Below are positions 1-11,313 of a stretch of 64,000 nt of DNA, in pieces. The number at the start of each line of letters is the position of its first letter. Within the stretch, counting starts at the first letter, position 1. Origin of the DNA: Olivibacter jilunii. GTDB taxonomy: Bacteria > Bacteroidota > Bacteroidia > Sphingobacteriales > Sphingobacteriaceae. Made by a program: the position numbers and the translations under genes. The notes under the pieces were generated by a model. It ran no database searches and had not been told where the DNA came from. It saw only the letters and a list, made by a program, of their open reading frames with translations. Location of the stretch: the NCBI RefSeq assembly GCF_900607235.1, contig NZ_LR027853.1, positions 131,428 to 195,427 of the forward strand, in the 5' to 3' direction.

Positions 1-86
1 TTCGATATCGTTTCTATTTTTGCAAATAAAGATAAAAAATATAATATCCGACATATCAAAGACGCCTTTTGGCCTAGGTATTCTTA

Positions 87-176
87 GTTATTGGTTATTG
101 GTTATTTGTTATTCGTTATTTGTTATTAGTTATTGGTTATTAGTTATTAGTTATTCGTTATTAGTTGTTGTTATTC
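87..176. repeat. Heptamer tandem array GTTATTN
   Basis: Eleven consecutive 7-base units GTTATTN run without a break from 87 to 163, followed by GTTGTT and a last GTTATTC. The first six positions are invariant in the eleven units; the seventh reads G,G,T,C,T,A,G,A,A,C,A. The array lies about 50 bases after the stop codon of the minus-strand ferredoxin-NADP reductase gene. The reading frame across it (20-211) encodes only a repetitive hydrophobic string and is not counted as a gene. Confidence 0.93.
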
Positions 177-225
177 GCTTTGTTTTTTTGCTGTGGTACT
201 ATTTGAGTTAACCCATTAACCAAAA

Positions 226-1230
226 CTAAAATGCGTGAATACCGTTGACCGTCGTATATTTAAAGTTCAGCTTTTGATCAGGGTACACGTATTTGAAAGC
301 ACCTTGCGCCATTAAAGCAGCTTCATGATAACCGCATAGGATCAGTTTTAGTTTGCCCGGATACGTGTTAATATCGCCAATAGCATATATGCGTTCTATA
401 CTGGTAGAATAATCAGTCGTATTCACTTCTATGGCCGACTTATCGATTGCCAAGCCCCATTGAGCGATTGGTCCTAATTTTGGACTTAAACCAAAAAGTG
501 GTATAAGTGCATCTGTTTCTAAAGAAATCTCTTCCTTTTGTTTGTTAATCATGGCAACTTTTGTTAAGTGGCCCCTTCCTTCTACCCGAATTAAATTATG
601 TGATAACAACAAGTTGATCTTACCACTGTTAGCAAGATTGAAAACCTTTTCCGCTGAATCGGGTGCACCTCTAAAACTTTCGCTCCGATGCACGAGGGTG
701 ACTTTTTCTGCAATTTCACTTAAAAATATAGTCCAATCCAAAGCTGAATCACCTCCGCCGGCAATAGCAACCTTTCTATCTCTAAATTGCTCCGGATTTT
801 TAATCATATAATAGATGCCTTTGCCTTCAAAGTCGGCCAAACCTTCTATTTCAGGTTTACGCGGTTCAAAAGAACCCAACCCTCCCGCAATTACTACCAC
901 TTGCGCATGGATGTTGGTCCCCTCATTGCCTTTGACCATATAGGAGCCATCGTGTTGTTTTTCAAGTGCTTCCACACGTTCTCCCAAAGTAAAAGTTGGA
1001 TGAAAAGGAGCGATTTGTTCCATCTGTTTATCGATAAGCTCTTGCGCATTGATGGCGGGATAACCGGGAATGTCGTAAATGGGTTTATGTGGATAAATTT
1101 CAGCCAGCTGTCCACCAACCTGAGGTAAGGCATCTATCAGGTGGCAACGCATTTTCAATAAACCTGCCTCAAAAACGGCAAACAAACCAACAGGTCCTGC
1201 ACCTATTATACATATATCTGTAGTAATCAT
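226..1230 (-). CDS. Ferredoxin-NADP(+) reductase, thioredoxin reductase-like type
   Basis: A 334-residue FAD/NAD(P)-binding flavoprotein that should move electrons between NADPH and ferredoxin or flavodoxin in the cytoplasm. The N-terminal FAD motif GAGPVG is at residues 10-15 and the NADPH-binding GGGDSALDW near 157-165. The redox CxxC of true thioredoxin reductases is absent at the expected place after the NADPH motif, which fits the YumC-type ferredoxin-NADP reductases of similar length. It starts at ATG 18 bases after the MarR regulator upstream, so the two probably share a transcript. The family call is strong; the physiological partner is inferred. The ferredoxin at 35653 is one candidate. 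Confidence 0.9.
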   Translation of the reverse strand: MITTDICIIGAGPVGLFAVFEAGLLKMRCHLIDALPQVGGQLAEIYPHKPIYDIPGYPAINAQELIDKQMEQIAPFHPTFTLGERVEALEKQHDGSYMVKGNEGTNIHAQVVVIAGGLGSFEPRKPEIEGLADFEGKGIYYMIKNPEQFRDRKVAIAGGGDSALDWTIFLSEIAEKVTLVHRSESFRGAPDSAEKVFNLANSGKINLLLSHNLIRVEGRGHLTKVAMINKQKEEISLETDALIPLFGLSPKLGPIAQWGLAIDKSAIEVNTTDYSTSIERIYAIGDINTYPGKLKLILCGYHEAALMAQGAFKYVYPDQKLNFKYTTVNGIHAF

Positions 1231-6690: not shown

Positions 6691-6746
6691 CACTATTTCC
6701 CTATTTAACTATTTCCCTACTCAACTATTCAGCTAAATCACAAATC
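6691..6746. repeat. Octamer array, complement (A/G)AATAGTT-like
   Basis: Seven 8-base units: CACTATTT, CCCTATTT, AACTATTT, CCCTACTC, AACTATTC, AGCTAAAT, CACAAATC. The complements (for example GAATAGTT and GAGTAGGG) resemble the octamers after ispE and after the 9330 gene. Confidence 0.75.
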
Positions 6747-10281: not shown

Positions 10282-10420
10282 GTTAGGTAGTTAAGTCGTT
10301 GAATAGTTGACGGTAAATTAATTAGCCAATGTTATAATTAGCCAATGTGGTAATGGTTGGGGCCTATGCGAGCTTAAAGCTTATAGCCTACTGCTTATAG
10401 CCTATGGCCTACAGCTAATA
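10282..10420. repeat. Compound octamer then heptamer array
   Basis: Starting 8 bases after the stop of gene 9330 are the octamers GTTAGGTA, GTTAAGTC, GTTGAATA, GTTGACGG. A 7-base unit follows, then ATTAGCCA, ATGTTATA, ATTAGCCA, ATGTGGTA, ATGGTTGG (to 10360). After 11 bases come seven heptamers at 10372-10420: GCTTAAA, GCTTATA, GCCTACT, GCTTATA, GCCTATG, GCCTACA, GCTAATA. The change of period within one intergenic region is notable. Confidence 0.88.
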
Positions 10421-10459: not shown

Positions 10460-11284
10460 ATGATTACATTTGCAAATGCCAAGATAAATATAGGTTTGCA
10501 GGTGCTGGACAGAAGACCTGATGGCTACCACAATTTGGAAACTGTTTTTTATCCTGTTAAACTATTTGATATTCTAGAAATAGTGCCTTCCTCCTCATTG
10601 AAATTGGAGGTTTCGGGTATCGGTATACCTAATAACGATGAGGATAATCTTTGTATTCGTGCCTATAGAGCACTTGCTGTGGATTTTGATTTAGAACCTG
10701 TTTGTATCTATTTACACAAACAAATACCCATTGGAGCTGGTTTAGGGGGAGGCTCAGCGGATGCCGCTTTCTTGATTAAATTGCTGTCCCGGTATTTTCG
10801 ACTGAATTTAAGTATCGAACAGATGGAGTCCTATGCCAGCGCATTGGGTGCCGATTGTAGCTTTTTTATCAGAAATAAGCCTGTTTTTGCGACTGGGATT
10901 GGCGATGTGTTTACCGAAATATCAATTGATTTATCAGCATACAAACTTGTTTTGGTTAAGCCTCCTATTCACGTTTCTACAGGAGAAGCCTATGGAAGTG
11001 TACGCTCCTCAAGGGAAAGTAAAAACCTTCGTGAACGAATTACATTGCCAGTCGAACAATGGAAAGAGCACCTTTTCAATGATTTTGAAACGGGAATCTT
11101 TCATCGATACCCGGAAATAAGAGGGATAAAATCCATGCTATACGAAAGAGGCGCGATATACGCTGCCATGAGCGGATCGGGTTCCACTGTTTATGGTCTT
11201 TTTAGAGAGGAGCTTGATCTAAAGGAATTGAAAGCTTGGTGTGAAGTGTATTGGATGGATGGTGGTGAGCGGAGGAGTAGTTGA
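10460..11284 (+). CDS. ispE: 4-diphosphocytidyl-2-C-methyl-D-erythritol kinase
   Basis: A 274-residue GHMP-family kinase of the non-mevalonate isoprenoid pathway that phosphorylates CDP-ME on its 2-hydroxyl. The N-terminal ANAKINIGL (substrate-binding K8) and the ATP-binding glycine loop GLGGGSAD (94-101) are intact, and MSGSGSTVYGLF near 236-247 is the third GHMP motif. The stop codon TGA (11282-11284) and the last codons, giving a GGERRSS tail, lie inside an octamer repeat array. The extreme C-terminus has therefore probably been reshaped by that array. Confidence 0.96.
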   Translation: MITFANAKINIGLQVLDRRPDGYHNLETVFYPVKLFDILEIVPSSSLKLEVSGIGIPNNDEDNLCIRAYRALAVDFDLEPVCIYLHKQIPIGAGLGGGSADAAFLIKLLSRYFRLNLSIEQMESYASALGADCSFFIRNKPVFATGIGDVFTEISIDLSAYKLVLVKPPIHVSTGEAYGSVRSSRESKNLRERITLPVEQWKEHLFNDFETGIFHRYPEIRGIKSMLYERGAIYAAMSGSGSTVYGLFREELDLKELKAWCEVYWMDGGERRSS

Positions 11285-11313
11285 GTCGTGAAGTAGTTAA
11301 GTTGTTGAGTCGT
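11274..11313. repeat. Octamer array overlapping the ispE stop codon
   Basis: Five 8-base units: GGAGTAGT, TGAGTCGT, GAAGTAGT, TAAGTTGT, TGAGTCGT. Positions 3-5 (AGT) and 8 (T) are constant, with G or A at position 2. The second unit contains the ispE stop TGA at 11282-11284. The third base of one unit thus fixes the end of an essential enzyme. Confidence 0.85.

Follow-up and report, generated by a model that had tools for sequence, protein, structure and literature searches.

How can a tandem repeat keep six of its bases constant while the seventh changes from one unit to the next? The question is raised by an array near the left end of the stretch of Olivibacter jilunii DNA analysed here (the window; 64,000 nucleotides, C6:131428-195427 of the 6.70 Mb assembly). 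A direct scan finds eleven perfect GTTATTN heptamers, in which GTTATT starts at positions 87, 94, 101, 108, 115, 122, 129, 136, 143, 150 and 157, and the seventh bases of units 1-11 read, in order, G G T C T A G A A C A (GGTCTAGAACA). TRF calls the array at 84-175/177 with a period of 7 or 21. The first-pass annotation of this DNA had described uninterrupted heptamers over 87-176; eleven perfect units do follow one another without a gap, but a six-base GTTGTT then breaks the run. The features of the locus, together with other word arrays of the window, are collected in Table 1.

Table 1. Features at and around the window array (window positions unless another locus is named)
Feature	Position	Strand	Description	Basis
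Probably foreign left flank	1-83	+	3' end of YraN/UPF0102 ORF (ends ...WPRYS, stop)	identity to C10
Perfect GTTATTN units	87-163	+	eleven heptamers	direct scan
Probable true join	122-151	+	30-nt overlap with the final bases left of the N	suffix match
Degenerate array end	164-176	+	GTTGTT (164-169, 6 bases), then GTTATTC (170-176)	sequence
Ferredoxin-NADP reductase-like gene	226-1230	-	stop codon faces the array	ORF and Pfam Pyr_redox_2
Ferredoxin gene (Fer2)	L041:9596-9916		beyond the N, outside the window	Pfam
Other word arrays	6692-6729, 10319-10416, 11280-11311		ACTATTTCCCTACTCA and TAATTAGCCAATGTGA (16-mers), AGCTTAAAGCCTATAGCCTAC (21-mer) and a GTTRAGTN octamer array

A probable assembly joint within the window array

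Window positions 1-139 are 100% identical (139 nt) to the reverse strand of C10:150424-150562, where an intact 122-aa UPF0102 ORF (PF02021, 5.5e-28) is followed by that gene's own array; the match covers the 3' end of YraN/UPF0102 and seven and a half units. A single N (C6:131427) stands directly before window base 1 and is the sole N within the 1.49 Mb of this genome examined. The identity to C10, the lone N and the recurrence of 30 nt on both of its sides indicate that units 1-7 are probably foreign to the fpr-fdx locus, i.e. the spacer between the reductase and ferredoxin genes. Judged from these sequence matches, units 1-7, part of unit 8 and the YraN flank are most likely C10 sequence misplaced by the assembly. 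The native fpr-fdx spacer would then probably hold eight perfect units with the seventh bases G G A G A A C A, T being absent, and units 8-11 of the window array are probably native while units 1-7 stem from the C10 array. The statement that the seventh base takes all four bases is thus true of the array as assembled, but both T's sit in units 1-7 and are probably an assembly artefact. A coding role for the ORF across window 2-211 was set aside, since that ORF spans the probable joint. Contig C1 terminates within an octamer array. Such arrays can mislead assemblies, and since the window array is probably in part an artefact, single arrays should not be over-read.

The closest named match of the reductase is found in O. 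domesticus (83% identity). A ferredoxin-like gene follows the reductase orthologues of O. domesticus and of a further genome, G004, and comparison of these orthologous loci shows no array in their short fpr-fdx spacers (~75-90 bp). Either this lineage has therefore gained the native array, or O. domesticus and G004 have lost theirs.

A dispersed family of heptamer arrays

Arrays of GTTRTTN occupy dozens of spacers in O. jilunii (G000) and O. domesticus (G001). A three-unit pattern gives 76 matches in the O. jilunii genome (36+40) compared to nine (3+6) for a reversed-pattern control, so that the window array belongs to a pattern beyond chance. For four consecutive GTTRTTN units the matches number 226 (control 19) in O. 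jilunii, 61 (control 0) in O. domesticus and 14 (control 0) in G003, and zero in G002 and G004. None of 65 heptamer arrays in O. jilunii and O. domesticus lies inside an ORF. Five consecutive GTTATTN units are present in 7 of the 399 genomes of the family that were searched. Besides the two Olivibacter species these are G045, with a mixed seventh base, G150, G194 and G271, where G is the sole seventh base in perfect runs, and G244, which has A in all units but one. The uniform or nearly uniform units of the last four genomes are the pattern expected from plain slippage.

A motif-free scan of 1.224 Mb of O. jilunii, a set that includes the window and some stretches with known arrays, identified period 7 as the commonest period with 18 stretches, part of which are accounted for by GTTRTTN. 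Three stretches each were found at periods 14 and 21, four at period 8, 11 at period 16, eight at period 24, one at period 10 and two at period 22; the remaining periods from 4 to 25 gave zero stretches, as did block shuffles at all periods. The 8/16-period class is largely made up of a second word, GTTRAGTN, whose fourth base is A or G and whose last base is mixed (A50 C13 T4 G3 in 70 units); two alternative units recur alongside it. Some heptamer units read GTTRCTN in place of GTTRTTN.

Several loci in O. jilunii carry other repeated words. The window holds a GTTRAGTN octamer array that overlaps an ORF end. One long spacer at C4:390794-392610 (L296) contains octamer arrays, three of which repeat every 531 bp (391270, 391801, 392332). 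At L154:12500-13400 (C3, ~112.5-113.4 kb) four tandem intergenic copies follow each other at a spacing of 210-213 bp, the unit being composed of several short words, namely GAGTGAT heptamers and octamers. Five copies of CCCGAAGGGCTCATTGA, spaced by 48-49 bp, lie beside a GTTRTTN-type array at L046:5583-5830 (C10, ~153.0-153.2 kb). Long uniform GTTGTTA runs are found at C1:943572 and C10:7789, each with a TTTTTAC-type heptamer array directly after it; the run at C10:7789 is preceded by four GTTATTN units, and the flanks of the two loci are 97% identical over 59 bp.

Variable positions of the unit

The combination of a fixed core with a hypervariable seventh base, first noticed at this one locus, recurs in both species. 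Among 341 units from 33 arrays of O. jilunii, position 7 reads G143 A123 C49 T26, and 207 units from 32 arrays of O. domesticus give A69 C62 G51 T25. The seventh base is not as free as had been claimed, as T is scarce in both sets. Nor is it the single variable position: in O. jilunii position 4 is free as well (A205 G126 T10) and position 5 partly so, while positions 1-3 and 6 carry at most 16 non-consensus letters each, and the other positions in O. domesticus show the same profile. Since arrays were called and extended on a match to most of the core, positions 1-3 and 6 vary little in part by construction; the sets that depend less on the core (motif-free scan, lag-7 identity) are smaller. 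One such set of 10 arrays and 95 O. jilunii units, chosen by lag-7 identity and then by consensus score, has 53% non-consensus letters at position 7, 27% at position 4, 9.5% at position 5 and 2-3% elsewhere.

A rival account of these arrays is plain polymerase slippage with point mutation, i.e. a neutral microsatellite in which whole units are copied and mutations are filtered by chance and detection. Neighbouring units should then tend to share their seventh base. Equal seventh bases at lag 1 are not in excess: they occur in 76 of 220 neighbours in the smaller O. jilunii set (80.9 in shuffles), in 134 of 308 in the larger one (136.6), and in O. domesticus there is a deficit (38 of 175 compared to 50.1). 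Without a lag-1 excess, recent slippage of single units is ruled out as the main source of the units. Equal seventh bases at lag 2, in contrast, exceed the shuffles in the smaller O. jilunii set (84 of 195 versus 72.3), with smaller excesses in the larger sets of both species. Furthermore, O. jilunii arrays are unequal in their seventh-base content, with none of 2000 shuffles reaching the observed value (93 of 2000 in O. domesticus). This heterogeneity suggests that local amplification also shapes position 7 and, like the lag-2 excess and the uniform arrays of other Sphingobacteriaceae, speaks for slippage. Taking these observations together with those on orientation and related arrays below, we regard plain slippage as an unlikely account of the family, albeit one to be taken seriously.

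Orientation of the arrays relative to gene edges

The arrays are strongly oriented within their spacers. Of 33 O. jilunii arrays, 27 have their GTT (5') side closer to a gene edge, as have 29 of 32 in O. domesticus (56/65 in total, two-sided p 2e-9), leaving nine of the 65 without this polarity; most arrays thus point 5' to 3' into the spacer, away from the nearer gene. The gene edge lies at a median of 22 bp (O. jilunii) and 12 bp (O. domesticus) from the 5' side, whereas for the 3' side the medians are 147 and 197 bp. For O. domesticus the set rests on all 61 of the 61 matches to four consecutive GTTRTTN units, and for O. jilunii the arrays in the stretches examined, among them the probable chimera (a misfit) and one array split in two. 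Stop and start codons form the near edge of the 56 polar arrays equally often (28 cases each), although start edges are uncertain since genes are taken as mechanical ORFs of at least 80 aa. Octamer arrays are polar likewise in 21 of 25 cases, three of the four exceptions lying in one cluster at C4:391.8-392.6 kb. Slippage leaves this polarity unexplained.

The opposite side of the spacer often carries a facing word. Downstream of the array, 60 heptamer-array spacers contain the octamer word (GTTRAGT) inverted in 21 cases and in the same direction in three; array-free spacers contain it in 75/628 and 20/228 cases. Of 50 array spacers, 32 have more inward GTT than AAC at the far edge and 12 show the opposite. 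The GTT/AAC ratio is 3.8-6.5 in array spacers. At array-free stop edges it is 1.13 in O. jilunii (371 edges) and 1.05 in O. domesticus (243), while array-free start edges already have some GTT excess (1.46 at 485 edges and 1.58 at 295, respectively); stop edges give 2.45 in G004 (17 edges) and 0.82 in loci of other genera (232). A general base skew of spacers was rejected as the source of the polarity, as array-free stop edges show little GTT bias in either Olivibacter species.

Related arrays and spacers shared between species

Arrays with homologous flanks were compared as related arrays; five copies at C1:106-114 kb that are nearly identical were left out, as was the probable chimera. This gave 77 pairs, which are not independent, among 42 of 82 arrays, with a median flank identity of 78%. 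Aligned on positions 1-6, related pairs differ at positions 1-7 by 3.9, 3.6, 1.1, 18.7, 14.2, 5.0 and 66.3%; unrelated pairs, subjected to the same register search, differ by 3.2, 5.2, 1.5, 28.1, 15.1, 6.9 and 70.8%, the standard deviation of the last value being 2.2 points. Related arrays thus have nearly no memory of the seventh base, and the core is as uniform between unrelated arrays as between related ones. An even scatter over all seven positions, the outcome named by the first-pass annotation as reducing the effect to chance, was not seen, since arrays with homologous flanks differ by 66% at position 7 and by 1-5% at positions 1-3 and 6. That the core differs so little when the flanks differ by ~22% argues against slippage, with the reservation that detection bias applies to the core. 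One further comparison, of the array at C10:202156 with its O. domesticus counterpart, agreed by eye in a one-to-one register at position 4 in 8/8 units and at position 7 in 2/8; the script preferred another register and the comparison was not relied on.

Exact copies occur as well. At C1:798.5 kb two 84-bp copies of 12 units are exactly identical, seventh bases included, and the orthologous arrays at C4:26648 of O. jilunii and C2:81907 of O. domesticus are identical in the same sense. Both observations favour slippage and show that copying was templated at least in these cases. The first-pass annotation had offered two origins, repeated slippage plus biased mutation or a process that leaves the seventh base untemplated; this interpretation is supported in part, by the recurrence of a fixed core with a hypervariable seventh base, but the 84-bp duplication does copy that base.

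In the comparison of O. jilunii with O. domesticus, 171 spacers have orthologous genes on their flanks, and 124 of them are at least 25 bp long in one species. Arrays are present in both species in seven of the 124, in O. jilunii only in nine, in O. domesticus only in eight and in neither in 100. The seven shared cases exceed the ~1.9 expected (one-sided Fisher p 5.5e-4) and correspond to 7 of the 16 O. jilunii array spacers. In five of the seven the arrays are oriented alike; in the other two they lie at opposite edges and run in opposite directions. A consensus word scan and the spacer lengths at one-sided loci revealed no clear insert size, the length gain ranging from -372 to 333 bp with a median of 23 bp.

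Some arrays head composite elements of 150-400 bp. In O. domesticus many arrays lead a composite whose body is shared (GTAGCAAGAC..., GTTRYGA words and an octamer-like tail), and such bodies are related over ~130-205 bp at 61-69% identity. Palindromes (CCTGCCTGCCGGCAGGCAGG) are present in some composites. These related bodies, the palindromes and the two shared spacers with arrays at opposite edges would fit a REP-like or MITE-like mobile element that is moved by a dedicated transposase and has the heptamers as its ends. Clustering of the bodies, however, left 43 of 87 arrays in no cluster, and inspection by eye recognised neither a target duplication nor a fixed terminus. A search limited to PF01797 (Y1_Tnp) gave zero matches in O. 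jilunii, with 5 of 14 control genomes positive, and REP/RAYT mobilisation was set aside for that reason. We consider a mobile element improbable as the explanation of the arrays.

RNA structure and reverse transcriptases

Arrays might alternatively act in transcripts as hairpins or terminators, comparable to stem P6b of the cyanobacterial tRNA-Leu intron. Arrays that face each other across a spacer are partly complementary, the A/G choice at position 4 fits wobble pairing, and three of 12 composites (L045b, L046a, L032) fold well below shuffles, with z between -3.0 and -6.1 for one strand or both. In contrast, neither strand of the other nine composites reaches a z of -3, and array spacers as a whole fold like others (median z of -1.12 for 44 spacers compared to -1.16 for 70 controls). 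An alignment of 13 elements contains 0 consensus pairs, and no Rfam match was obtained in the six loci searched. A structured RNA is therefore very unlikely to explain the arrays, and hairpins or terminators were rejected as a general feature on the basis of the folding, alignment and Rfam results.

In a telomerase-like process an enzyme would extend 3' ends at spacer breaks by short words that contain one untemplated base, and the extended ends would then be joined. Such a process would account for the polarity at two edges, the convergent pairs, the loss of memory at the seventh base and the appearance of arrays in spacers that had none. Synthesis of tandem repeats has a bacterial precedent in DRT10, as described in a preprint (PMC12632851). 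The templated 84-bp duplication speaks against such a process, as does the spread of RVT_1 matches, which does not track the arrays: G003 has none despite 14 array matches and G004 has several despite zero array matches. O. jilunii has one RVT_1 match (Drt2-like) and O. domesticus one (retron-like). The O. jilunii match is a Drt2-like defence reverse transcriptase gene at L321:580-2250 (C9, ~57 kb). Writing by a reverse transcriptase was set aside since the distribution of RVT_1 matches is out of step with that of the arrays, and we regard a telomerase-like addition as very unlikely.

A proposed reader of the core that ignores the seventh base

The reading that we favour, and hold to be probable with moderate confidence, is that the window array is one copy of a family of dispersed, polar intergenic heptamer arrays in Olivibacter, enlarged by an assembly joint, that its core is kept by a putative reader ignoring the seventh base, and that array length changes by templated duplication. 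The core would be conserved because it is read, while position 7 would be an unread spacer that drifts. The putative reader of the GTTRTT core could be a protein that binds it as DNA or as RNA, or else an enzyme that acts on it, and templated duplication would alter both the length and the unit content of an array. In order of likelihood, recognition of the core is followed by plain slippage with drift and detection bias, then by a mobile element and finally by a biased writing process.

Comparison with known repeats

A search of the open-licence literature, in which few queries named the genus or family, found no paper on such arrays in Olivibacter. Degenerate heptanucleotide units are known from stem P6b of the Nostoc tRNA-Leu intron, where copy number is reported to vary and the units to pair into a hairpin within one intron (PMC3488679). 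The Olivibacter arrays share the degenerate 7-nt unit and the variation in copy number and, unlike the P6b hairpin so described, show no general structure, as they fold like control spacers and yield 0 consensus pairs.

The TAACTGA direct repeats of Beggiatoaceae, Cyanobacteria and five Bacteroidetes are likewise intergenic. The accessible text on these repeats describes an exact unit with one-base relatives that are rare as repeats, suggests a role as translational sites because many just precede start codons, and notes that contigs of Elizabethkingia relatives often terminate in TAACTGA-type repeats (PMC4679880). In the register of the Olivibacter arrays the unit reads GTTATCA, one base off GTTATTA, and as far as described there it lies near start codons in some species, in an orientation matching that of our arrays. 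GTTRTTN differs from the exact TAACTGA in its mixed seventh base and in stop edges being as common as start edges.

The closest resemblance is to the intergenic heptamer repeats GGGAATC/(GGGANTN)n of Xanthomonas and GGGGA(C/T)T of Nostoc (PMC4692102), found in a different phylum. In the available portion of that work the GGGANTN repeats are mostly intergenic, degenerate at positions 5 and 7, and closer to the 5' ORF whatever its direction (average 28 nt versus 160 nt). In Xanthomonas they form convergent pairs in one spacer and recur in the same spacers of related species with varying length and sequence, 83% being shared between two species; its authors consider G-quadruplexes. As far as these descriptions go, GTTRTTN is alike in being a 7-nt intergenic unit with a fixed core and set free positions, in lying closer to the 5' ORF irrespective of direction (in 56/65 arrays), in its convergent pairs and in its recurrence in the same spacers. 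It differs in which positions are free (7, 4 as A/G and partly 5, instead of 5 and 7), in the facing word, which in Olivibacter is often an octamer, and in a lower sharing between species (the 7/16 spacers above compared to 83%). Judged from its sequence, a GTTRTTN unit contributes at most GG, and only if base 7 is G, in contrast to the GGGA core.

Without G-runs the quadruplex idea does not carry over to GTTRTTN, and the same layout built on a very different core implies that G-quadruplexes, the explanation considered for Xanthomonas, cannot account for the layout in full. G-quadruplex or hairpin formation is unlikely as a general cause of the GTTRTTN arrays; a shared layout with a core lacking G-runs and with no detectable general hairpin separates the layout itself from both ideas. 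We infer that the Olivibacter arrays are the same kind of polar intergenic array as those of Xanthomonas and Nostoc, without G-runs, and read by something that ignores the seventh base. A bolder and distinctly doubtful extension would treat polar heptamer arrays as one cross-phylum phenomenon independent of sequence, in which a writing process would start from the gene edges on either side and extend 7- or 8-nt words 5' to 3' into the spacer, leaving one position per word untemplated, so that GTTRTTN, GGGANTN of Xanthomonas and TAACTGA of Beggiatoaceae would be words of the same machinery. With an Olivibacter family to set beside those of Xanthomonas and Nostoc, an unexplained class of bacterial repeats becomes a comparative, testable problem.
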